DNA from: Gemmatimonadaceae bacterium
GTDB lineage: Bacteria > Gemmatimonadota > Gemmatimonadetes > Gemmatimonadales > Gemmatimonadaceae
Assembly: GCA_025928185.1 (NCBI GenBank)
Contig: JAICKA010000001.1
Coordinates: forward strand, 124,001-188,000
Direction of reading: 5' to 3'
Length of the DNA: 64,000 nt
The notes under the pieces were generated by a model. It worked only from the letters and a program-made list of their open reading frames with translations, had not been told where the DNA came from and did not search any database. A program made the translations under genes and the position numbers. This document shows positions 20,888 through 33,209 of the stretch, piece after piece (the first letter of the stretch is position 1; every line of letters begins with the position of its first letter).

Positions 20888-22105
20888 CTAGTATCGGAAC
20901 GCCACCTTCACGTTCCCCTTGCCACGGTTCATCGCCGCCGCAATCGCCGCCCGGTAGTCGGCGAGGGGGAACGTCTGCGTCACCAGCGGTCCGACCGGCG
21001 CGCGGCCGCTCGCGATCAGCGCCGCGGACTCGGCGAATGCGTCCTGCGTCGCGCCGCCGTGCCCGTGCGCGCCGTAGCAGACGCTGCCGCGCACCGTCAG
21101 CTCCTTGAGCCAGAGCGGCGTCCAGTCGAGCCCATTCAGAGAACTCACATTGCCGAGCAGGACGATCGTGCCGCCGGGGCGGGTGAGGCGAAGCGCGTCG
21201 TCCATGGCCGACGTGCCACCGACGCAGACGAAGGTCATGTCGAATCCGCTGCCGGTGCCGATCGGCCGTCCGATGATCGGTTTCAGCAGCCGTGCATGCC
21301 CGATCTCGGCCAGCTCCTCGAAGTAGTCTCGGCGCGCGCGGACTACCTGCGCGGCGCCGAGCCGGGTCGCGTGCGCCGCCTGGAATTTGTGCCGCGCCAG
21401 CACGGTCACGGAACGCTCCGGCGCCAGGGCGCTGAGCGCCGCCGTCGTCAGCAGTCCGATCGAGCCGGCGCCGATCACGAGCACGCGCGCGCCCGTCGGC
21501 GGCAGATTGCTTCGCACCGCGTGCACCGAACAGGCGAGCGGCTCGATGAGCACCGCCTCCTCGTCCCGCATCGCGTCGGGGACGGGCACCAGCCGCGACT
21601 CGTGCGCCACGAATACCTCGCCCCAACTGCCGCCGGTGTCGCGCGTCGTGCCGATGAGCATGCCCGGCGAAAGCGCGCCGTCGGTGAAATGGGCGCAACG
21701 CGAATGGTCGCCGGCGGCGCACGCGGCGCACGAGGGCTGCATCTCGCGCGGCTCGCAGCAGAGGAGCGGATTCGCCACCACGCGCTGTCCCGGGCGCACG
21801 CTGCGCACCGCGCGCCCCACTTCGATCACCTCGCCCACGTTCTCGTGGCCAAGCACGAACGGGAACGACGAAAAGGGCGACGTCGCCGGACTCGCCTTGA
21901 GCATTATCACATTGAGGTCGCTGCCGCAGATGCCGCCCATCCGCGTGCGGATGCGCACCCATCGCTCATTCGGCAGCGCCGGCTCCAGCGCGTCACCGTA
22001 CGTGGTGCACGCATGCTTGCCGAGATAGAACCGGCGCGACAGGCGACCGGTGGCGCGCGTGGTGAGGTACGTCGGGATCGGCGCCGCGAAGCGGATCGCC
22101 TTCAT
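20888..22105 (-). CDS. Zinc-dependent medium-chain dehydrogenase
   Basis: The 405-residue enzyme has the catalytic-zinc elements GGICGSDLN and GHENVGEV, a structural-zinc cysteine set (CCEPREMQPSCAACAAGDHSRC) and a Rossmann motif VLVIGAGSIGLL. It would oxidise an alcohol or reduce a ketone with NAD(P). Its ATG overlaps the stop of the lipid kinase gene by four bases. In an operon with an oxoamine synthase, reduction of a 3-keto-sphingoid-like intermediate is a reasonable guess, although classical 3-ketosphinganine reductases are short-chain enzymes. Confidence 0.88.
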   Translation of the reverse strand: MKAIRFAAPIPTYLTTRATGRLSRRFYLGKHACTTYGDALEPALPNERWVRIRTRMGGICGSDLNVIMLKASPATSPFSSFPFVLGHENVGEVIEVGRAVRSVRPGQRVVANPLLCCEPREMQPSCAACAAGDHSRCAHFTDGALSPGMLIGTTRDTGGSWGEVFVAHESRLVPVPDAMRDEEAVLIEPLACSVHAVRSNLPPTGARVLVIGAGSIGLLTTAALSALAPERSVTVLARHKFQAAHATRLGAAQVVRARRDYFEELAEIGHARLLKPIIGRPIGTGSGFDMTFVCVGGTSAMDDALRLTRPGGTIVLLGNVSSLNGLDWTPLWLKELTVRGSVCYGAHGHGGATQDAFAESAALIASGRAPVGPLVTQTFPLADYRAAIAAAMNRGKGNVKVAFRY

Positions 22106-23031
22106 GCCTGCGCGGCGGTCGCGATCGGTGTCACGACGCGGAGCGCGCGAGGCACGCAGCGCACCTCCAGTGTCGGCGAGCTGGCGCGATTGTACTCGCC
22201 GTCGGTCTCGTAGGCCGGCGGCGACGGAAACGACAGCGTGAAGCTCGACGCCTGCTCGGTGCGCACTTCAGGCTGGCTGCCGTGCGTGCCGCGCGAGGCC
22301 GCGGCAAACAGGCGCATGCGTCTCAAGGGCGAAGCGGTGCGGATGGCGATCGCGTCGAGCCGTCCGTCCGTGAGGCTCGCCTCGGGCGCGATGCGAAACG
22401 CGCCGCCGAAGTTGCGCCCGTTGGCGATGATCAACATCAGGTGCTGCACCACACCGCGACGTTCCTTGAGCGTGGTGACGTCGATCGCAATGCCGGCGTA
22501 GCCGAACAGCTGGCGCAGCGCCGAGTACGCGTAGACGAGATCGCCCCGCAGCAGCGTGATCTTCTCCACGTCCTCGAGCACGGCGGTGTCGAAGCCGAAG
22601 CCGGTGACGTTGAGAAAATACTTGCCCTCGATGCGCCCGACGTCGACCGCGACATCCGGCCCGTCGATCGCGAGTCGAGCGGTGGCGACGTAATCCGTCG
22701 CCGGCACGCCGACGGTCTTGGCGAAATCATTGCCGGTCCCGGCGGCGGCGAGCCCGAGCCGCACGTCGGCGCGCGACGTGATGATCGCGTTCGCGACGTT
22801 GCTCCACGTCCCGTCGCCACCGACGGCGACGATGGTCCGCGCCCCTTCCTCGATCGCATGCAGCGCGAACACACGCTCGTCGCCGCGCGCCCGGGTCGCG
22901 CGCACGTCGGTGACGCCGACGTCGGCGAACGCACGGCGAACCTGTGCTTCCACTTTGGCGCCGCGCCCTTTGCCCGCTGCCGGGTTCAGGATGACGCAGA
23001 CGCCCGCACCTCCCCCACCACCAGCCGCCAT
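22102..23031 (-). CDS. Diacylglycerol/sphingosine kinase-family lipid kinase
   Basis: The 309-residue protein matches the YegS/DagK catalytic fold: CVILNPAAGKGRG at the N-terminus, VAVGGDGTWSNVANAI, LGLAAAGTGNDFAKTVG, NVTGFGFDTAVLEDVEK and PEASLTDGRLDAIAIRT. Such kinases phosphorylate the hydroxyl of diacylglycerol, ceramide or a sphingoid base with ATP. The start base is shared with the TGA of the preceding gene (TGATG), and the stop overlaps the dehydrogenase start, so the operon is translationally coupled. With an oxoamine synthase upstream, a sphingoid-base kinase role is attractive; diacylglycerol remains the default. Confidence 0.88.
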   Translation of the reverse strand: MAAGGGGGAGVCVILNPAAGKGRGAKVEAQVRRAFADVGVTDVRATRARGDERVFALHAIEEGARTIVAVGGDGTWSNVANAIITSRADVRLGLAAAGTGNDFAKTVGVPATDYVATARLAIDGPDVAVDVGRIEGKYFLNVTGFGFDTAVLEDVEKITLLRGDLVYAYSALRQLFGYAGIAIDVTTLKERRGVVQHLMLIIANGRNFGGAFRIAPEASLTDGRLDAIAIRTASPLRRMRLFAAASRGTHGSQPEVRTEQASSFTLSFPSPPAYETDGEYNRASSPTLEVRCVPRALRVVTPIATAAQA

Positions 23032-23729
23032 CAGCGCGGCGCGAACGACGCCAGCTGTTGCAGCGGATGGAACGTCTGCAGGCCGTTGCGCATCCACAGC
23101 TCGCGGAACGGCGTGACGTCCACCTCCCAGTCGGTGAGCAGATTGGTCATCGCCTGCGAGTGGATCACGATGCCGCCGCGCTCCTCCTCGTTCTCGCTGA
23201 ACTGGCCGGCCATCTCGATGATCGAGCTGTACGCGCCGTCGTCGTCGTTCATGAACGCCTGGTACGGATGCGATACCTTCGACCACTCGTGCTCGGTGAC
23301 CGTCATGTCGACGATCGGCTCGCCGCGATCGGTGGCGTTGATGGTGATGTGGCCGTCGCCCCGCTCCCAGGCGATCGAGATGTCCTGCATGTAGTGCGGC
23401 AGGTGCCAGCGCTCGATCGCGTGCTCGCGCGACTCCGTGGTGGTCGTGCCGAGGCGGAATGGCCAGAACGCCGAGCGCGGCCACGGCTGCCCCTGTTCGA
23501 CGCGCGGCGACACGAGAATGGAGAGGATCAGCTCCCCGTACTCACCGACCGGGCTGTCGTGGAAGTCGAACGCCATCACGGACAGCACGCTCGAGCCGTG
23601 GTGCGGTTCGATCGGCTGGAGATCGGACGGCAGGATCGCGCGCGCGTTTTCCGTCGGAAACTCGAAGAACCCGCCGATGGCGTCGCGGAAGTGATACTGG
23701 ACGAAGTCGGAATGACTGCTGCTGCTCAT
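23031..23729 (-). CDS. Acetoacetate decarboxylase-fold protein lacking catalytic Lys
   Basis: A 232-residue ADC-superfamily protein. PTENARAILPSDLQPIEP and the later SVLSVMAFDF strand fit the family, but the block that carries the Schiff-base lysine in true acetoacetate decarboxylases (PKK) reads HLPHYMQDISIAW here, with no Lys. Decarboxylation by the usual imine mechanism is therefore unlikely; a lipid-binding or different catalytic role is more probable. It overlaps the oxoamine synthase stop (ATGA) and shares one base with the kinase start. Conserved placement inside this operon would argue for a role in the same lipid. Confidence 0.75.
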   Translation of the reverse strand: MSSSSHSDFVQYHFRDAIGGFFEFPTENARAILPSDLQPIEPHHGSSVLSVMAFDFHDSPVGEYGELILSILVSPRVEQGQPWPRSAFWPFRLGTTTTESREHAIERWHLPHYMQDISIAWERGDGHITINATDRGEPIVDMTVTEHEWSKVSHPYQAFMNDDDGAYSSIIEMAGQFSENEEERGGIVIHSQAMTNLLTDWEVDVTPFRELWMRNGLQTFHPLQQLASFAPR

Positions 23730-25021
23730 ACGAGAATCCTCTCTTCACGAAGCACATGGACGAGCGTGGCGACCCCCGCGTCGAGCTGCTCGCGGGTATG
23801 GGACGCCGAGACGGAGACGCGGAAGCGCGAGCGATGCTTGGCCACCGCGGGATAGATCACGGGCTGGAGATAGATGCCGGCCCGGAGAAGCTTGTGACAG
23901 ATCTCGAACACGCGCCGGTCGTTCCGGAGCATGATCGGGATCACCTGCGACGTCGATTCGCCGACGTCCACGCCCGCCTCATCGAGCAGGCCGCGGATGT
24001 ACCGAACGTTGTCCCACAGCTGATCGCGCAGCTGCGGCTCGGCTTGCGCCAGCTCGAGCGACTTGAGCACGCCGGCCGTGACGACCGGCGACAGCGCGCA
24101 CGAGAACACGCGCGACCGCGCGAAGCCCTTGAGATAATTGTAGAGGCTGCGCGGTCCGGCGACGTACCCGCCCTGCCCGCCGAGCGCCTTCGAGAAGGTG
24201 CCGATGTGGATGTCCACTTCGTCCTCGAGCCCGTACAGCTCGGCCACGCCGCGGCCGTTCGCGCCGTAGACGAATGCCGAGTGCGCCTCGTCGAGCATGA
24301 TCCGCGCGCCGTATTTCTTGGCGACGGCGACGAGCTCCGGCAGCGGGCACACGTCGCCGTCCATCGAGTACACGCCCTCGATGGCGACGAGCTTCTTGCC
24401 GGCGGCGTGCTTGAGCTTGCGCTCGAGATCCGCCGGGTTGTTGTGCCGGAAGAAGCGCACGTTTGCCTTCGACAGGATCGCGCCGTCGACGATGCTCGCG
24501 TGCGCGTTCTGATCGGCGATCACCCAATCTCCCGGCCGCATCAGGCCGGCGATCATGCCGACGTTGGTGCTGTAGCCGGTCGGGAAGACCATCGCCGCTT
24601 CCTTGAGCTTGAACTTCGCGAGCGCCTCCTCGAGCTGCACGTGGATGTCCATCATGCCGCTCAGGATCGGCGAGCCCGCCGCGCCGAGGCCGTACCGGTC
24701 GAGCGCCGCCTTCGCCGCCGCGATCACCTCGGGGCGGAAGGACAGTCCGAGGTAATTGTACGACGACAGATTGATCAGCCGGACCTGTTTGCGCTCGAGC
24801 CCTTCGGTGAGATTGATCTCACCCTGGGGCGGCGTTGACATGGCCTGGGAGAACAGATAGTAACCCTGCGGCAGCGCACGCTCGAACCAGTCGTTGTATG
24901 GTCCGAGCACGGCGAACGGGTCGTCGCTCGTCGAGTAGAAGAAATTGCTATAGTCGTAGTCCGAGACGTTCGGGGGTTGCGCTTCGAGCGGCTCGGGCTG
25001 CGCTTCGACCGGTAAAGACAT
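23726..25021 (-). CDS. Alpha-oxoamine synthase, serine-palmitoyltransferase-like
   Basis: The 431-residue PLP enzyme belongs to the family that joins an amino acid and an acyl-CoA to give an alpha-amino ketone. Features are SSYNYLGLSFRPEV, GLGAAGSPILSG, the stacking and Asp regions LDEAHSAFVYG, and the PLP lysine in GTFSKALGGQGG. The GTFSK form (not TLGKAFG of ALA or KAPA synthases) and the ~40-residue N-terminal lead (DYDYSNFFYSTSDDPFAVLGPYNDW) favour serine palmitoyltransferase. A GGAGGT site 6 bases before the ATG at 25021 fixes the start. It is the first gene of the lipid operon. KAPA or other amino-ketone products are alternatives. Confidence 0.85.
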   Translation of the reverse strand: MSLPVEAQPEPLEAQPPNVSDYDYSNFFYSTSDDPFAVLGPYNDWFERALPQGYYLFSQAMSTPPQGEINLTEGLERKQVRLINLSSYNYLGLSFRPEVIAAAKAALDRYGLGAAGSPILSGMMDIHVQLEEALAKFKLKEAAMVFPTGYSTNVGMIAGLMRPGDWVIADQNAHASIVDGAILSKANVRFFRHNNPADLERKLKHAAGKKLVAIEGVYSMDGDVCPLPELVAVAKKYGARIMLDEAHSAFVYGANGRGVAELYGLEDEVDIHIGTFSKALGGQGGYVAGPRSLYNYLKGFARSRVFSCALSPVVTAGVLKSLELAQAEPQLRDQLWDNVRYIRGLLDEAGVDVGESTSQVIPIMLRNDRRVFEICHKLLRAGIYLQPVIYPAVAKHRSRFRVSVSASHTREQLDAGVATLVHVLREERILV

Positions 25022-25033
25022 GGTGACCTCCAT

Positions 25034-25915
25034 TTGAACGGCGATAGTCCGGGCCAGATCGACCAGCCTGCGAATCTCGACACTCACCCGGCGCAATTCG
25101 GACGGGGGCTTCGCAGCGGCGCGTTCGTCGCCCTCTTTGCGTGTTACTCACTACTGTTCATCGGCCTCGGACAACGACTCGTCGTCTGGCCGATGGTCAC
25201 GTTATTTCCACGGCGGCGAGCGGCCGTGATCCGCGTCTGGCTCCGCATGCAGGCGCACGCCACGCTCGCCCTGGCCCGCGTCGTCGCGGGCGTGCGGCTC
25301 ACGGTGCGCGGCGCCATTCCGCCGCGGAGCTGCATCGTCGTGATGAACCATCAATCGGTCCTCGACATTCCGCTCGGGGTCTGGCTCATCCGTGGACCCC
25401 AGGTGCTGATTCCAACGCGCGACCGGTACCGGCGCGGCGTGCCCGGCATCTCGCCGCTCGTGCGGCTCGCCGGCTTTCCCATCGTGTCGCAGAAGCGCAC
25501 GATCACGCGCGAGGAGCTGCAGGGGCTGACCGATGCCGCCGACCTCGTCGCGCGCGGCGAACGCACGCTGCTCATCTTTCCCGAAGGGCACCGCACTCGC
25601 GACGGCGCCATCGGGCGGTTCATGCGCAGCGGCCTCCGCATCATGCTCGGCCGCACGAACGGTCCCGTGTACTGCGTGGTCGCCGACGGCATGACGAGCG
25701 CGCGCACGACGAGCGACGCGGTCACCGGGTTCGGCGCCGCGGAGGTCCGCGTGACCATTCTCGGTCCGTTCACGTTCGGTGGACCTTCGACGCCCGAGGC
25801 CATCGACGCATTCATGGAATCGCTACGACAGCGAATGGTCGACACGCTCACCGCCATGCGCGCTGAAGCCGCCGATGCACCGATCGATGCCGCCACACCC
25901 GCCCCCGCTCGCTGA
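25034..25915 (+). CDS. PlsC-family acyltransferase
   Basis: The 293-residue membrane enzyme has an N-terminal helix (residues ~30-55) and 1-acylglycerol-3-phosphate acyltransferase motifs: NHQSVLD (HxxxxD), GFPIVSQKR, and FPEGHRTRDG. It would transfer acyl groups onto lysophosphatidate or a related amine/alcohol. The TTG at 25034 is the only start that includes the first helix; an ATG at 25192 would remove it. If right, only 12 bases separate it from the divergent synthase start. It begins a three-gene run with a Tam41-like and a CDP-alcohol transferase, so it likely makes the lipid that is then activated with CTP. Confidence 0.85.
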   Translation: MNGDSPGQIDQPANLDTHPAQFGRGLRSGAFVALFACYSLLFIGLGQRLVVWPMVTLFPRRRAAVIRVWLRMQAHATLALARVVAGVRLTVRGAIPPRSCIVVMNHQSVLDIPLGVWLIRGPQVLIPTRDRYRRGVPGISPLVRLAGFPIVSQKRTITREELQGLTDAADLVARGERTLLIFPEGHRTRDGAIGRFMRSGLRIMLGRTNGPVYCVVADGMTSARTTSDAVTGFGAAEVRVTILGPFTFGGPSTPEAIDAFMESLRQRMVDTLTAMRAEAADAPIDAATPAPAR

Positions 25916-26894
25916 TCCGGAGATGCGCCGCGTGCTGGCGACGGGGTTGGAGACCCCGGCGTCGCCACGGGCCGCACAGCTGGCCGAGTTTCTCGCCGAC
26001 GCGTTCGGTCCGACGACCGTTGGGTTGCTGCACTACGGCTCGCACGCCCACAGCGCGGATGCTCGCGCCGAAAGCGCTCACGACTTTCTCGTGATCGTTG
26101 ATGATTATCTGATGGCGTACCGCTCGCTGGCCGCACGCGTCGGCACCAGCTATCGGCCCCGCACCGCGGCGTGGCTGAATCGCGTTCTGCCGCCGAACGT
26201 GATCTCGGTGACCGATTCGAGTGCGACACCGCCGCTCCACGCCAAGTGCGCGGTGTTCTCGCTGTTTCACTTTCAGCGTGCGTGCTCGACACGGGCCCGC
26301 GATCATTTCGTTCGCGGACGATTGTTCCAGCCGGCGCAACTGCTGTGGACGCGCGATGCCGACGCCCGGCGAACGGTGACCGAGGCCGTGCTCGAAGTGC
26401 GCGCCGGCGCGTTCGAACGCCGCCGCGCTTCGCTGCCGTTGCGCTTCGACGTGGAAGCGTACTGTCGCGCGATGATCGCAACGTCGTTCGCTGCCGAGAT
26501 CCGCCCCGAACGTCCGGAGCGGGTCGAAGCGATTCTCGCGGCTCAGCGCACAGAGATCGTTCCAATGTATGCGGCGTTGCTACGGTGGCTCGGTCGCGCG
26601 GGGGTGCTCGACCCGGAAGGAGAGACGTACCGGGACCCGTACCCGAGGGGGTGGTGGGAGCGGTTCCGGCTGGCGAGATATTACCGCCGCAGCAAGCTGC
26701 GGGCGACGCTACGCTGGGTCAAGTATATCGCGTTGTACGACAATTGGCTGGATTACGTTTCAGAAAAGGTGGCCCGGCGCAGCGGTGTGGTGATCGAGCT
26801 CACCGAGCGCGAGCGGCGGTGGCCGCTCATCTTTCTGTGGCCGAAGGCCATCCGATATCTGCGGCATCGGCCACAGCGCCAGAGTGAACCCTGA
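25887..26894 (+). CDS. Tam41-like CDP-lipid synthase (nucleotidyltransferase fold)
   Basis: About 335 residues with a pattern matching mitochondrial Tam41 (PF09139): HYGS followed by HDFLVIVDDYLMAYRSL (GS...D-F-x-x-x-V-x-D of the nucleotidyltransferase core), PNVISV, HAKCAVFSLFHFQRAC (like IKYGVV...L..DL), DHFVRGRLFQPAQLLW (like YxAGRLxKPV), and a helical C-terminus ending in MYAALLRWLG. Tam41 makes CDP-diacylglycerol from CTP and phosphatidate, which fits perfectly between an acyltransferase and a CDP-alcohol phosphatidyltransferase. The start is uncertain (25875, 25887 or 25923); 25923 follows the acyltransferase stop with GGAG directly adjacent. Family assignment is by motif pattern only. 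Confidence 0.65.
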   Translation: MPPHPPPLADPEMRRVLATGLETPASPRAAQLAEFLADAFGPTTVGLLHYGSHAHSADARAESAHDFLVIVDDYLMAYRSLAARVGTSYRPRTAAWLNRVLPPNVISVTDSSATPPLHAKCAVFSLFHFQRACSTRARDHFVRGRLFQPAQLLWTRDADARRTVTEAVLEVRAGAFERRRASLPLRFDVEAYCRAMIATSFAAEIRPERPERVEAILAAQRTEIVPMYAALLRWLGRAGVLDPEGETYRDPYPRGWWERFRLARYYRRSKLRATLRWVKYIALYDNWLDYVSEKVARRSGVVIELTERERRWPLIFLWPKAIRYLRHRPQRQSEP

Positions 26895-26902
26895 AAAATT
26901 CG

Positions 26903-27637
26903 ATGACTGCCTACATCGCGCTGGTGCTTGCCGGCCTCGCTGTGCTCACGATGCCGATCTACGCCGTGGTGACGCGCGGTCGCCCGATCGATCCCGAAGT
27001 CGCTCGCCGGCCGACCACGGTTCTGCTCGGCTACTGGATTCGCGACTGGGTGATGTGGACGATTCGCCCGCTCGAGCGCGCGTTGATCGCCAGCCGGATC
27101 GATCCAGCCGTGCTCAATGTGACCGGCGCCTTGCTCGGCCTCGCTGCCGGCATCGCCTATGTCGAGCGGCAGCCCGGGGTCGCGGGCTGGTGCATTCTGC
27201 TCGGTGGGCTCGCCGACATCATGGACGGTCGGATCGCGCGAGCGCGAAACATGGTGTCGACCTTTGGCGAGTTCCTCGACTCGGTGCTCGATCGCTTCGC
27301 CGAGGTGTTCGCGTTCGTAGGACTCGCGTTCTACCTCGCGTGGTCGCCGTGGGGCGTGTTGGCGACGACGCTCGCAGCCGGCAGCTCGCTGCTCGTGAGC
27401 TACGCGCGCGCCAAAGCGGGCCAGGTCGGCGTCGACTGTCGCGGCGGCGTGATGCAGCGCGCCGAACGCCTCGTGCTGCTCGCCCTTGCGTCACTCCTCG
27501 ACGGGCCGCTCGCGGCCGCAACAGACTGGCCGGAAGGTGCGGTGCTGCTGGCAGTGGTCGCGCTGATCGGTATTGGCGCGTTCGGCACGGCGGTATTTCG
27601 CACGGTCGTCGTTGCGCGGGTGTTGCGCCGGTCCTGA
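26903..27637 (+). CDS. CDP-alcohol phosphatidyltransferase
   Basis: The 244-residue membrane enzyme carries the complete class-I signature DG-x2-AR-x8-G-x3-D-x3-D as DGRIARARNMVSTFGEFLDSVLD (about residues 109-131 including the preceding Asp), with six or so helices. It moves a phospholipid moiety from a CDP-lipid onto an alcohol such as inositol phosphate, glycerol phosphate or serine, releasing CMP. It starts 8 bases after the Tam41-like gene, so the two act in sequence. The head group cannot be read from the sequence; presence of a long pre-domain helix (residues 1-60) is notable. Confidence 0.9.
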   Translation: MTAYIALVLAGLAVLTMPIYAVVTRGRPIDPEVARRPTTVLLGYWIRDWVMWTIRPLERALIASRIDPAVLNVTGALLGLAAGIAYVERQPGVAGWCILLGGLADIMDGRIARARNMVSTFGEFLDSVLDRFAEVFAFVGLAFYLAWSPWGVLATTLAAGSSLLVSYARAKAGQVGVDCRGGVMQRAERLVLLALASLLDGPLAAATDWPEGAVLLAVVALIGIGAFGTAVFRTVVVARVLRRS

Positions 27638-28870: not shown

Positions 28871-29005
28871 ACAGGCTGCCCTGCCGGGCAATCGGGAACC
28901 GTGCTTCCCGATTGCCTGACAGCGCCACGTCCGACATTTCGTTCTCTTGCTGATGCCGATGCTGGCGACTGGTGAGATCGGACGAGTGGAGGGAGGGTGG
29001 CGCTC

Positions 29006-30742
29006 ATGCAACGGAATCGGATACAACACCGCGCAGGCGAGCTCGCGACGAGCGGGCGAATCGACCATGACCGGTGCGCGCGAGATCTCATCGGACTCGC
29101 GCAGGCGAATCTCACATGGCTCGGACAATCGCCCGACGCAATCGTGCGCGGGCTCGGCGATCTGTTCGCGACGCTGGTACACGCAAACCTGCTCGAAGCG
29201 CGATTCACCGATGACGGACCCACGTCCGCGCCGCCGCCGGTCGAGACGGAGGCGTCCGCGCAGGCACGGTCGCGCTGGCGCCGACTTGCGCGGGTGGACA
29301 TCGGCGAAGGCGGCGAGCTGGGACAAGTCGTACTCGGCGCCAATCGACCGGACTTTCCGGATGCGCTGGAGCTGGCGATCATCCGCGCCGCGGCCAGTCA
29401 CGCGGCAGGCGCCGTGCGCCATGCCCGCACGGCGAGCCGATATGAGAACACGAAACTCCGCCTCGCGGATCAGGCGGCGCGCCAGTCCGCCGTCGCGCGC
29501 CTCGGAACGCGCTTTCTGGGGCTCGACAGCGTGGACGAGATTCTCGCTGCCGCCGTCGGCGGACTGCGCGAGGCACTGCGCGTCGACTACTGCGAGGTGT
29601 TCGAGCTCTGTGACGATCGATCGAGCCTCGTGCTTCGCGCCGGCGAGGGACTGTCCGGCGAGCACCTCGGACAGTACCGCCTCGAGGCAACCGCCGACTG
29701 CGAGGCGGGCTTCGCGCTTCGCGCGGCTGAACCGCTGATCGTCACCGACAGCAGCACGGAAACGCGCTTTCACGTCGCGTCACTCCCGACCGGACTGGCC
29801 GCTCGCTGCGGCGTGACGGTGCAGATCCCCGGTCGCGCGGCGCCGCTCGGCGTCCTCGGCGTGCACGCCCGGAGCCTGCGCGAGTTCACGCGCGAAGACG
29901 TGTATTTCCAGCAGTCCGTGGCCACGCTCGTCGGCTCGGCGATGGTGCGGCGGCTCGCGGTGTCCGAGCGCGAGTCGCTGATCGAGCGAACCACGGCCGC
30001 CCGCGAAGCCGCCGAAGCGGCGAGCGAGGCGAAGACGAAATTTCTCGGCATGATGAGCCACGAGCTGCGCACACCGCTCAATGCGATCGGCGGATACGTC
30101 GAGCTGTTGCAGGCGGGCACCCGTGGCGCGGTCACGGACGAGCAGCGGATCGACCTCACGCGCATCGCGCGCAACCAGCGGTATCTCGTGAGTCTCATCG
30201 ACAACGCGCTGAGTTATCTCAAGCTCGAGAACGGCAAGGTGCGCTACGACATCGCCGACGTGCAGGTGAGCACGCTCGTCGCGTCGCTCGATGACGTCAT
30301 TCGCCCGTTGATCGACGCCAAGGCGCTGTCGTACGTGCGGCACCTGCCGCCGGCGGATCTGCACGTCTCCGCGGATCGCGGCAAGCTTCAGCAAATCATC
30401 ATCAATCTCCTGTCGAACGCCGTCAAGTTCACCGAGACCGGAGGCACGCTCACGCTGGAGTGCAGTGTGGGCGATCAGACCGTGCGCATTCACGTTCGAG
30501 ATTCGGGCATGGGGATCCCGGCCGATCGCCTGCATGGCCTGTTCGAGCCGTTCGCGCAGGTACGCGAAAACGACGGCCTGCACGGGTCCGGCACCGGGCT
30601 CGGACTCTCGATCAGCCGCGAGTTTGCGCTCGGCATGGGCGGAAATCTCGTGGCGTGCAGCGAGCCGGGTCGCGGCTCGGTATTCACGCTGGTGTTGCCG
30701 CGCTGCGCGGCGGATCCACGCGGGTCCGCCGCCTCGAACTAG
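29006..30742 (+). CDS. Cytosolic GAF histidine kinase
   Basis: A 578-residue kinase without membrane helices: an N-terminal helical/GAF-like part (~20-150), a GAF domain (~160-310), a short coiled coil, a HisKA domain with MMSHELRTPLNAIGGY and an HATPase_c domain ending GTGLGLSISREFALGMGG. The ATG at 29006 fits a GGAGGGAGGG site 8 bases upstream; a GTG at 28997 is too close to it. The gene ends tail-to-tail with the response regulator, the two stop codons overlapping within one CTAG. Its C-terminal half is clearly paralogous to the kinase at 48156-49463. No receiver gene is attached in the same direction. Confidence 0.92.
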   Translation: MQRNRIQHRAGELATSGRIDHDRCARDLIGLAQANLTWLGQSPDAIVRGLGDLFATLVHANLLEARFTDDGPTSAPPPVETEASAQARSRWRRLARVDIGEGGELGQVVLGANRPDFPDALELAIIRAAASHAAGAVRHARTASRYENTKLRLADQAARQSAVARLGTRFLGLDSVDEILAAAVGGLREALRVDYCEVFELCDDRSSLVLRAGEGLSGEHLGQYRLEATADCEAGFALRAAEPLIVTDSSTETRFHVASLPTGLAARCGVTVQIPGRAAPLGVLGVHARSLREFTREDVYFQQSVATLVGSAMVRRLAVSERESLIERTTAAREAAEAASEAKTKFLGMMSHELRTPLNAIGGYVELLQAGTRGAVTDEQRIDLTRIARNQRYLVSLIDNALSYLKLENGKVRYDIADVQVSTLVASLDDVIRPLIDAKALSYVRHLPPADLHVSADRGKLQQIIINLLSNAVKFTETGGTLTLECSVGDQTVRIHVRDSGMGIPADRLHGLFEPFAQVRENDGLHGSGTGLGLSISREFALGMGGNLVACSEPGRGSVFTLVLPRCAADPRGSAASN

Positions 30743-31530
30743 CGCTCGCCCTCCAGCTGCGAGGCGCCGGCGCCGAGCAGCCCGGCCTCGACGGCGAAGC
30801 GGACGAAATCGCTTCGATGTACGAGGCCGAGCTTGTCGCGGATGCGCCGCTTGTAGGCGTCGACGGTCTTGCTGCTCACGCCGAGCTCGCGCGCGATCTC
30901 CGCGCCGCTGTAGCCGCTGGCGATGCGACGCAACGTGATCTGCTCGCGGTCGCTCAGCAGATCGAAGCGCGTGCGGTGCACCGGCTTGAGGACCGGTGAC
31001 GCGACGGCGGTCGCGAGCGCGCGCGCTGCGGACGGCCGCACGTACACCTCGCCCGCCGCGACGACGCGAATGGCGTCGACGAGCTCGCGGACTGCGGCAT
31101 CCTTGGTGAGGTATCCGCACGCGCCAAGCTCGAGTACCGGCAGCAACGACGCATGCTCCGGATAGACCGTGAGTACCAGCACGCGCGCCGACGGCGCATT
31201 GGTGCGCAGGCCGCGGATCGCCGTCGCGCCATCGCTCCCCGGCATGTCGAGATCGAGCACGACGACGTCCGGCGCCAGGCGCGCCGCGGCGGCAACCGCA
31301 TGATCGCCGTTTTCCGCTTCACCGACCACTTCGATTTCCGGCGCGGCTCGCAGCAGCATGCGCAGCCCGGCGCGAAACAACGTGTGATCGTCGGCGAGCA
31401 GCACCGTGATGCGATCCGTGCTCACCGGCACGCCGCGGTGAACGTGCGGCTGTGCGAGCAGCGCCGCACTCAGGTCGGCCGGTTTGCCGGCGGGTCCAAA
31501 TTCGGTCCCTGCGTTCGCCAGCTTCATCAT
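30739..31530 (-). CDS. NarL/FixJ-family response regulator with N-terminal extension
   Basis: A 263-residue regulator. Receiver: ADDHTLF, phospho-acceptor Asp in VVVLDLDMPGSDG and Lys in GYLTKDAAV; output: LuxR-type helix-turn-helix (LLSDREQITLRRIASGYSGAEIARELG). The ATG at 31530 overlaps the stop of the upstream kinase (ATGATGA), adding ~37 residues before the receiver; a GTG nearer the receiver is possible. It resembles the regulator at 8460-9119 in the linker (VYVRPSAARAL) and in the helix-turn-helix, so the two systems are paralogous. The upstream kinase is the likely partner. Confidence 0.92.
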   Translation of the reverse strand: MMKLANAGTEFGPAGKPADLSAALLAQPHVHRGVPVSTDRITVLLADDHTLFRAGLRMLLRAAPEIEVVGEAENGDHAVAAAARLAPDVVVLDLDMPGSDGATAIRGLRTNAPSARVLVLTVYPEHASLLPVLELGACGYLTKDAAVRELVDAIRVVAAGEVYVRPSAARALATAVASPVLKPVHRTRFDLLSDREQITLRRIASGYSGAEIARELGVSSKTVDAYKRRIRDKLGLVHRSDFVRFAVEAGLLGAGASQLEGER

Positions 31531-33209
31531 GGCGCGCTCCGCTCGTTGCCCTCTGCAGCCACGAACTCGGGCAACTCGAACCAGAACGTCGTGCCCTGGC
31601 CGGGGATGCTTTCGACTTCGAGCTCGGACCCGTGTGCGGCCACGAGCGCGTGTGCGATCGCGAGCCCCAGTCCGGTTCCACCCCGCGCGGCATCGCGCGA
31701 ATGCCAGAACCATTCGAACACGTGCGGCAGATCCTCGGCGGGAATGCCGGCGCCCGTATCCTGCACGGCAAATCGAACCAGCCGGCCAGCCACACCGCCG
31801 CCGACGTCTGCACCGGCTTTCGTCTGCACGCTTCGCACCGAAAGCTCGACCCGTCCGCGTGGCGGCGTGAACTTGATCGCGTTCGCGACGAGGTTGAACA
31901 GCACCTGGAGCAAGCGCTCCGGATCAGCGTCGACGCGCGGCGTATCGGCGGGACTGCTGCATACGAACAGGATCTGCCGCTCCTCCGCCAGCCGCGCAAG
32001 GTTGTCGTGCACGGATTCGATGACCTCCTCGATGAGCGTCGGTTGGCGAGCCAGTCGCAGTTCGCCCGCGTCGAGGCTGGCCTGGTCGAGGAGATCGTGC
32101 AGGATCTGCTGCATCAACGTCGCCGAGCGTTCGATGAGCTCGGCCGCATGCCGCGTGAAGCTGGCGTTCAGCGGGTCCGTTCTGAGCAGCGCCGAGGCGC
32201 CCATCTGGATCGTGGTGAGCGGGGTGACGAGATCGTGCGACACGATGCTGATCGCGCGATCCCGCGCGGCGACGGCCTCGCGCGCACGGCGCAGCGTCGT
32301 TCCGGCCTCGAGCGCGGCCGCAATGCGATGGGCGGCCGCGCGCGCGAGCGACCCGCCGGCGTCGTGCGCCACCCGTGCGTTCGAGCCGAGGACGAGCACG
32401 CCGCGCGCCTCGCCGGCAATGCGAATCGTCGCCGGGCGGGCGATGATGATTCCGGCATTCGATAGGTCGTGCACGATCGCCGCGCGCAGCTCGTCGACGC
32501 TCGGCACGGAGTCGCTCGGTCCTTCCTCGTCAGTCGCGGGACCGATGTCGAGGATCTGCTCGATGCGCGCGCGAATGTCCGTTTCGAGCGTGCGATCGAC
32601 ATGCCGGAGCGCGAGCGATGCGCGGCCGTCGTCCTCGTTCGACAGCCAGATCAAGGCGCAATCGGCGGCCACCGGGACGAGCAATTGCGTGACGCCGTTC
32701 ATCGCGTCGGATGTCGTCGCGGCCGCGGCGACGATGCGAGAAATGTCATCGAGCAACGGCCAGTGCTCGGCGGCAACGCCCATGTGGCGCATCGAAGCGA
32801 GGAGCTCGCGCGCCCATGTCTGCCGGGCGATCGCGTCGCGCAGCACGCGCGCGAGCTCCGCTGCGTCGGATGGCACCGCCGGCAGGATCTCCTGCGCGCC
32901 CGCGTGCAACAGATCGGTATGAGCCAGAGGCTCGGTCGGCGATCCGATCGCGACCACGGCCATCGTCGGCGCGGCGCGCCGCAGGTCACGTACGACATCG
33001 GCGAGATCAGCCGGGTCCGCGTCGACGACCGCGACGTCGATCGCGTTCTGACGGGCGATTGCGGGCGCGGCGGCGCACGTCGCCGTCGACACTGACCACG
33101 ATGCCGCCGAATCGGCGCGCTCCGCCGCCAGGCACATTTCGAGACTCGCCGCGGCGCTCGGGTCGTCCGCGACCAGCAATACGACCGAGGGCGTGGGTCG
33201 ATCGCTCAT
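31527..33209 (-). CDS. Hybrid-type histidine kinase: degenerate receiver, GAF, HisKA, HATPase
   Basis: The 560-residue protein begins with a receiver-like fold (VVLLVADDPSAAASL ... VAVVDADPADL ... AGAQEILPAVPSD) in which the usual Lys is replaced, so phosphorylation there is doubtful. A GAF-like domain (~165-310) follows, then HisKA with IVSHDLVTPLTT and HATPase_c with GGTGLGLAIAHALVAAHG. No membrane helices are seen. It is the first gene of a two-gene operon with the NarL-like regulator. The pseudo-receiver may bind a partner kinase, such as that encoded by the convergent gene. Confidence 0.9.
   Translation of the reverse strand: MSDRPTPSVVLLVADDPSAAASLEMCLAAERADSAASWSVSTATCAAAPAIARQNAIDVAVVDADPADLADVVRDLRRAAPTMAVVAIGSPTEPLAHTDLLHAGAQEILPAVPSDAAELARVLRDAIARQTWARELLASMRHMGVAAEHWPLLDDISRIVAAAATTSDAMNGVTQLLVPVAADCALIWLSNEDDGRASLALRHVDRTLETDIRARIEQILDIGPATDEEGPSDSVPSVDELRAAIVHDLSNAGIIIARPATIRIAGEARGVLVLGSNARVAHDAGGSLARAAAHRIAAALEAGTTLRRAREAVAARDRAISIVSHDLVTPLTTIQMGASALLRTDPLNASFTRHAAELIERSATLMQQILHDLLDQASLDAGELRLARQPTLIEEVIESVHDNLARLAEERQILFVCSSPADTPRVDADPERLLQVLFNLVANAIKFTPPRGRVELSVRSVQTKAGADVGGGVAGRLVRFAVQDTGAGIPAEDLPHVFEWFWHSRDAARGGTGLGLAIAHALVAAHGSELEVESIPGQGTTFWFELPEFVAAEGNERSAP

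Follow-up and report, generated by a model that had tools for sequence, protein, structure and literature searches.

In described sphingolipid pathways, the head group reaches ceramide either off a complete phospholipid or in a form that has itself been activated. In Bacteroides thetaiotaomicron, the class I CDP-alcohol transferase BT_1523 uses inositol phosphate to make phosphatidylinositol-phosphate diacylglycerol (PIP-DAG), and the inositol phosphorylceramide (IPC) synthase BT_1522 moves phosphoinositol from phosphatidylinositol (PI-DAG) to ceramide (dihydroceramide); the backbone is supplied by the serine palmitoyltransferase (SPT) BT_0870, encoded at a locus separate from BT_1522-1526 (PMC9246714). 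In the ceramide phosphoglycerate pathway of Caulobacter (spt, cerR, bcerS, cpgA-D), the DagK-family kinase CpgB works with the CTP-using nucleotidyltransferase CpgD, which is likened to TagD-type cytidylyltransferases and activates the head group (phosphoglycerate) rather than the lipid; the accessible parts of these reports name no Tam41-like, PlsC, acetoacetate decarboxylase (ADC)-fold or CDP-alcohol gene (PMC12275187, PMC11324152). Here, a lipid locus of Gemmatimonadaceae bacterium, a soil member of the Gemmatimonadota (assembly GCA_025928185.1, a draft genome of 3.7 Mb in 288 contigs) is analyzed, which was read at positions 20888-27637 of a 64-kb stretch of contig JAICKA010000001.1 (the window; 64,000 nucleotides). 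It has in common with Bacteroides an SPT-like enzyme for the predicted backbone and a class I CDP-alcohol transferase of the kind that uses inositol phosphate, and with Caulobacter a DagK-family kinase and a nucleotidyltransferase predicted to use CTP. Unlike in Bacteroides, the synthase shares its locus with a predicted CTP transferase, a lipid kinase and an acyltransferase, and none of the loci was seen to contain an IPC synthase.

The reading favored here, with a probability that we place just above one half (about 0.52), is that the glycerophospholipid pathway has a sphingoid counterpart in this locus, running via CDP-ceramide to an inositol-phosphate head group. Two of its enzymes have described counterparts. 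The overall fold (over 246 residues) and the G-S..D..K..R pattern of Tam41, the mitochondrial and bacterial CDP-diacylglycerol (CDP-DAG) synthase (6ig2, 6ig4, 7ecd), recur in one protein of the locus, which differs from Tam41 in its low identity (13%), in the operon setting of its family, whose genes lie among lipid genes and in most cases have an oxoamine synthase gene linked to them, and in the additional presence of CdsA. The D2DG2AR..G3D3D motif and four inositol-phosphate-contacting positions of the actinobacterial phosphatidylinositol-phosphate (PIP) synthase (PgsA1/RsPIPS; PMC4634129) recur in another, which differs in the replacement of P153 by Ala or Gly throughout and scores under the NF045883 cut-off.

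Conservation and co-inheritance of the gene set

The locus consists of seven genes in two back-to-back operons, four on the minus and three on the plus strand (Table 1), all at the positions given in an earlier note made from the sequence. The overlaps of one to four bases which that note described for the minus set are exactly 4 bases (synthase/ADC-fold gene), 1 base (TGATG; ADC-fold gene/DagK) and 4 bases (DagK/zinc dehydrogenase). The synthase start is uncertain, with ATG called and alternatives at TTG 25033 and at GTG or TTG codons up to 25096. The nearest named relatives at the locus are those of Gemmatimonas sp. and Gemmatimonadaceae metagenome-assembled genomes (MAGs), with 87-89% identity for the ADC-fold protein.

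Sampling of 298 Gemmatimonadota genomes showed a Tam41-like gene in 50, and in nearly all carriers it is preceded by PlsC, followed by the CDP-alcohol gene and faced by ADC-DagK (33-60% protein identity); the synthase lies between the two halves in about half of these loci. When an ADC-fold alignment was scanned against 84,980 species genomes, 80 loci were obtained (several cut by contig ends), with DagK in 74, the Tam41-like gene in 69, PlsC in 65, the CDP-alcohol gene in 63-64 and the synthase in 60. They span Gemmatimonadota, Acidobacteriota, Krumholzibacteriota and Latescibacterota (a Latescibacterota genome). In Vicinamibacteria (L126, L127, L130, L131, L136, L143, L144), all six genes lie on one strand in the order SPT-ADC-DagK-PlsC-Tam41-CDP-alcohol transferase, directly downstream of a short-chain dehydrogenase/reductase (SDR) gene, an order that plausibly fits the biochemical one. 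The same six genes in two different arrangements are hard to explain other than by a shared pathway. The six-gene core, without the zinc dehydrogenase, is thus a real unit, kept in dozens of loci whose proteins share as little as about 35% identity and not assembled by chance, and the gene order proposed as conserved is found in relatives, also as a single operon. Some loci occur in MAGs labelled Gammaproteobacteria or Acidimicrobiia, apparently misnamed; those titled Gammaproteobacteria (L125, L128, L172, L176, L177, L179) carry Gemmatimonadota- or Krumholzibacteriota-like loci and are probably misnamed MAGs. A scan of viral contigs with the Tam41-like protein gave no match.

Synthase orthologues (E<=1e-125) were found in 58 of the 298 genomes, including 47 of the 50 Tam41-positive ones (Fisher 2e-40); by genus, the synthase is present in 21 of 22 Tam41-positive genera versus 26 of 119 overall (1e-17), p-values that overstate the strength of the association because genomes are not independent. 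Inside genera (g1, g62), the two genes likewise share a patchy distribution: in g1, the source genome carries both and three other sampled members carry neither. In many genomes of family f5 the synthase lies on another contig than Tam41, yet both co-occur. The ADC-fold gene is present in all 58 synthase-positive genomes and in only one other (85% complete), so that synthase and ADC-fold protein form a constant pair in Gemmatimonadota. A second ADC-fold paralogue lies directly behind the synthase in the f5 genomes (L180-L193), where the first paralogue remains with DagK, PlsC, Tam41 and the CDP-alcohol gene.

Enzyme families of the locus

The closest solved relative of the oxoamine synthase is the SPT of Sphingobacterium multivorum (295.6 bits), followed by the KBL/AONS of Thermus (255.2) and the SPT of Sphingomonas (253). 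Its pyridoxal phosphate-site residues (Schiff-base Lys, Asp and His of DEAHS, and stacking His) match those of the SPT structures 3a2b and 2w8t in the alignment. In a tree of 46 rows, the synthases of the loci form one clade (100/100) outside KBL, BioF and ALAS, which rules out the enzyme as a KBL, KAPA or ALA synthase. We name it SPT-like rather than SPT; its product would be a sphingoid base.

The ADC fold claimed for its partner is confirmed by an AlphaFold model (pLDDT 90.3), for which the best Foldseek matches are acetoacetate decarboxylases (5e-11, 3bgt); PF06314 matches 27 of 29 members. It is not a canonical decarboxylase, however: the (L/Y)PK of ADC-family references is aligned with an invariant LPH (Pro111-His112) in all 29 locus members, and replacement of the Schiff-base lysine by His112 means that the protein is not a Schiff-base decarboxylase. 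Judged by alignment and gene content, these proteins are an uncharacterised ADC subfamily, which accompanies the oxoamine synthase in each sampled genome that has one. As a guess, the protein may bind or tautomerise a 3-keto base.

The families of the other genes were supported by Pfam and NCBIfam searches (Table 1), whereas the Tam41-like protein is without any Pfam match, and its assignment is drawn from fold and relatives. PF09139 matches 11 of 37 relatives at E<=1 (best 4.6e-6) and, in a wider set, two of 29 sequences at E<=0.01. The best solved match of the 37-row profile is Schizosaccharomyces pombe Tam41 (E 0.058), and that of a wider, cross-phylum profile to solved Tam41 is no better (E 0.16). 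The AlphaFold model (pLDDT 88.9) contains the Tam41 fold, a nucleotidyltransferase domain with a helical C-terminal part: by Foldseek and VIA-align, it matches 7ecd (bacterial Tam41 with CTP-Mg) with Z 20.5 over 246 residues and S. pombe Tam41 (6ig4) with Z 16.4, the next fold being an aminoglycoside nucleotidyltransferase (Z 9.4, N-terminal domain only). Gly31, Ser32, Asp46, Lys100, Arg125, Glu184 and Arg186 are invariant in both the 37 and the 29 sequences and align with S. pombe Tam41 (6ig2), in which Asp stands for Glu184. Because CdsA is present in all 50 Tam41-carrying genomes, a role as substitute for missing CdsA is ruled out.

Among NCBIfam models, archaetidylinositol-phosphate synthase and the BT1523 PIP synthase fit the CDP-alcohol transferase best, with each score below its cut-off (NF040950, 5.8e-37, 127.4/180 bits; NF052561, 5.4e-32, 111.4/350; NF045883, 83.9/170). 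The class I motif D2DG2AR x8-9 G3D3D is present. In PIP synthase, S132, K135, R155 and R195 contact inositol phosphate and P153 lines the acyl groove for CDP-DAG (PMC4634129). Equivalents of S132, K/R135, R155 and R195 are kept in 18 aligned relatives (SYxR/K, QRxER and xRTV positions; MAFFT), and the P153 equivalent is Ala or Gly in all 18. These residues would fit an inositol-phosphate acceptor with an altered lipid donor, and they disfavor the glycerol-type head group that had been offered as one option. The source genome has four other CDP-alcohol transferases; on its contig C114 (L231:4229-6257), a housekeeping PIP-synthase-type gene, in which the Pro is kept, stands immediately before that for myo-inositol-1-phosphate synthase. 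This second enzyme is encoded in 278 of the 298 genomes, for which reason its co-occurrence is uninformative beyond indicating a supply of the acceptor; inositol lipids are likely to be common across Gemmatimonadota.

DagK passes the TIGR00147 subfamily cut-off (151.8 vs 118.65 bits) and carries GGDGT and GTGNDF motifs; other bacteria have kinases of the DagK family that act on ceramide and on dihydrosphingosine (PMC10331486, PMC9045371). PlsC carries NHx4D and FPEG motifs, and a second, stronger PlsC is encoded elsewhere in the source genome. The zinc dehydrogenase, initially counted with the locus, is not part of its core: it follows DagK in 22 of the 80 loci, and Vicinamibacteria have the SDR at the matching place. 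Its nearest NCBIfam model is L-threonine 3-dehydrogenase (1.8e-34, far under cut-off), an enzyme that works with KBL on a short-chain analogue of the same chemistry; in Escherichia coli, tdh and kbl adjoin. It is an accessory enzyme and a candidate 3-keto reductase.

Table 1. The seven genes of the locus, with positions in the window and supporting matches
Gene product	Position	Strand	Support
Oxoamine synthase (SPT-like)	23726..25021	-	Aminotran_1_2 2.8e-58 (Pfam)
ADC-fold protein	23031..23729	-	PF06314 (ADC) 2.8e-7
DagK/YegS-type lipid kinase	22102..23031	-	PF00781 (DAGK_cat) and PF19279 (YegS_C), 2.6e-25; TIGR00147 2e-44
Zinc medium-chain dehydrogenase	20888..22105	-	ADH_N/ADH_zinc_N (Pfam)
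PlsC-family acyltransferase	25034..25915	+	PF01553 (Acyltransferase) 3.3e-12
Tam41-like nucleotidyltransferase	25887..26894 (start 25875 or 25887)	+	Fold and relatives; predicted CTP:lipid-phosphate cytidylyltransferase
CDP-alcohol transferase, PIP-synthase-like	26903..27637	+	PF01066 (CDP-OH_P_transf) 9.9e-15

Outside the locus, 28997-33209 resembles a cluster of a sensor kinase and a LuxR-type response regulator, as judged by eye from the translations.

Proposed pathway and competing explanations

Observed are the families of the genes, the fold and catalytic residues of their products, and the way in which the genes are linked and inherited together; from these we infer all substrates and their sequence as follows. 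The synthase and its ADC-fold partner would join serine and an acyl thioester, and a dehydrogenase (zinc-type here, SDR in Vicinamibacteria) would reduce the 3-keto long-chain base so formed. DagK would phosphorylate the 1-hydroxyl, yielding sphinganine-1-phosphate, which parallels lysophosphatidic acid except that an amine replaces the sn-2 hydroxyl, and PlsC would acylate the 2-amine to give ceramide-1-phosphate, a compound similar to phosphatidic acid. On this sphingoid phosphate, rather than on phosphatidic acid itself, the Tam41-like enzyme would then act, forming CDP-ceramide with CTP, and the PIP-synthase-like enzyme would exchange CMP for L-myo-inositol-1-phosphate. The resulting ceramide-phosphoinositol-phosphate would be dephosphorylated by a phosphatase encoded outside the locus. 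DagK, Tam41 and CDP-alcohol transferases all require a 1-hydroxyl, and a serine-derived base supplies one. The chain of base formation, phosphorylation, acylation, CDP activation and inositol head group, as earlier proposed, best accounts for every gene, although substrates and head group are predicted ones.

Several points weigh against this pathway. The Tam41-like protein itself has no match to PF09139 in a Pfam profile search, the check that the earlier note had named; sequence support is thus weak, while some of its relatives and its fold do match. The synthase is set apart from KAPA, ALA and KBL synthases, but it belongs to a clade of its own that falls on the SPT side at low support values (68/79), with warnings of long branches, and it scores under the NCBIfam SPT cut-offs (NF047600, 361.8/640 bits; NF047599, 345.8/500; NF047603, 288.8/670). 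We know of no precedent for N-acylation by PlsC, and no gene for a PIP phosphatase is found within the locus. Two genomes, G127 and G075, of which G075 consists of one contig, carry Tam41 and the CDP-alcohol transferase without synthase or ADC-fold gene, which implies that this pair is able to act on something else. In G127 (L037:8344-14780, C3), the pair adjoins genes for an FAD oxidase of the alkyl-DHAP-synthase type and for a fusion of fatty-acyl reductase and acyltransferase, neighbors which suggest that the module may also serve ether lipids or another non-standard backbone, with glycerolipid substrates possible. Conversely, eleven synthase-positive genomes are without Tam41. Among the Tam41-free loci, synthase-ADC-DagK of genus g9 (L194:2590-12288, L195, L196) adjoins genes for a UDP-sugar dehydrogenase, an epimerase, a DegT aminotransferase and Gfo/Idh proteins, a neighborhood suggestive of a glycosylated rather than a phospho-sphingolipid. 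Two other neighborhoods were noted in passing: in the f6 genomes G251 and G273 (L198:9429-10337, L199:9202-10116), a different, stronger PlsC-family gene (PF01553 1.9e-26 in L198) lies upstream of the synthase, and Tam41 and the CDP-alcohol transferase are absent; in G188 (L200:9451-10710), a lysine-2,3-aminomutase-type radical SAM gene adjoins the synthase. Taken as a whole, the earlier interpretation is supported in part, and the grouping of the synthase, the Tam41 match and the gene linkage each left it standing.

The separability of the half-operons seen in the eleven synthase genomes, together with G127 and G075 and the ether-lipid-type neighbors in G127, also speaks for a possible but distinctly less probable explanation, in which PlsC, Tam41 and the CDP-alcohol transferase make an ordinary or ether glycerophospholipid (a second PIP pool from CDP-DAG), and the sphingolipid made by SPT, ADC-fold protein and DagK draws on this pool for its head group afterwards. 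Such a transfer has a precedent in Bacteroides (PMC9246714), and characterised Tam41s use phosphatidic acid (PMC7018664). However, no IPC-synthase gene resembling AUR1 or BT_1522 recurs in the loci, co-inheritance with the synthase is near-complete, and DagK and the ADC-fold gene stay with PlsC, Tam41 and the CDP-alcohol gene even when the synthase is on another contig. Given CdsA in all 50 genomes and a PIP synthase with myo-inositol-1-phosphate synthase in the source genome, a second CDP-DAG line would be redundant; with the second PlsC added, the locus is a parallel to the glycerolipid line and not a substitute for it.

The separate 100/100 clade, its weakly supported place beside SPT and the scores under all NCBIfam cut-offs would also suit a synthase of new specificity, with another amino acid or acyl donor, whose alpha-amino ketone is modified by the ADC-fold protein, so that the CDP-activated lipid is not strictly a sphingolipid; the strictly associated partner with its invariant His for Lys is in no known SPT system. 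This appears unlikely, as the closest solved relative is an SPT by a clear margin (295.6 vs 255.2 bits), the kinase, CTP transferase and CDP-alcohol transferase that follow point to a free hydroxyl, supplied by serine, and a candidate 3-keto reductase (zinc-type or SDR) recurs. Highly improbable is another order of steps, in which a ceramide synthase encoded elsewhere first makes ceramide, DagK is a ceramide kinase like the DagK-family CpgB of the Caulobacter sphingolipid operon (PMC10331486) and PlsC adds an O-acyl chain: acylation precedes reduction in Caulobacter (PMC11087976), but no GNAT-type ceramide synthase was noticed recurring in the loci, where no search aimed at bCerS/CerR was made, and the Vicinamibacteria operon places the kinase before the acyltransferase, which is suggestive only.

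Possible meaning for bacterial sphingolipid synthesis

Spt-like proteins have been extended to 38 phyla from Black Sea metagenomes (PMC11334938), and sphingolipid genes in such phyla are thus not new in themselves. For the six-gene assembly, its Tam41-type enzyme, its ADC-fold partner and the CDP-ceramide that they imply, no such pathway was found in an open-licence literature of 5.39 million papers, nor was the term CDP-ceramide itself within that scope. That several bacterial phyla make phosphosphingolipids in this way, by PlsC-type N-acylation at the phosphate stage, Tam41-type activation to CDP-ceramide and attachment of the head group by a CDP-alcohol transferase, has in our estimate an even chance of being right, and each proposed step is assayable with single soluble or membrane proteins.

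If true, sphingolipid synthesis through CDP-ceramide would follow a new logic, one that mirrors the assembly of glycerophospholipids in full but builds on a sphingoid backbone, and the bacterial Tam41 relatives that stand beside CdsA would gain a role. Inositol-phosphate sphingolipids would be predicted in Gemmatimonadota, Vicinamibacteria, Krumholzibacteriota and Latescibacterota, in which sphingolipid enzymes have hardly been studied. It also raises the question of whether mitochondrial Tam41 derives from a family with wider lipid substrates.

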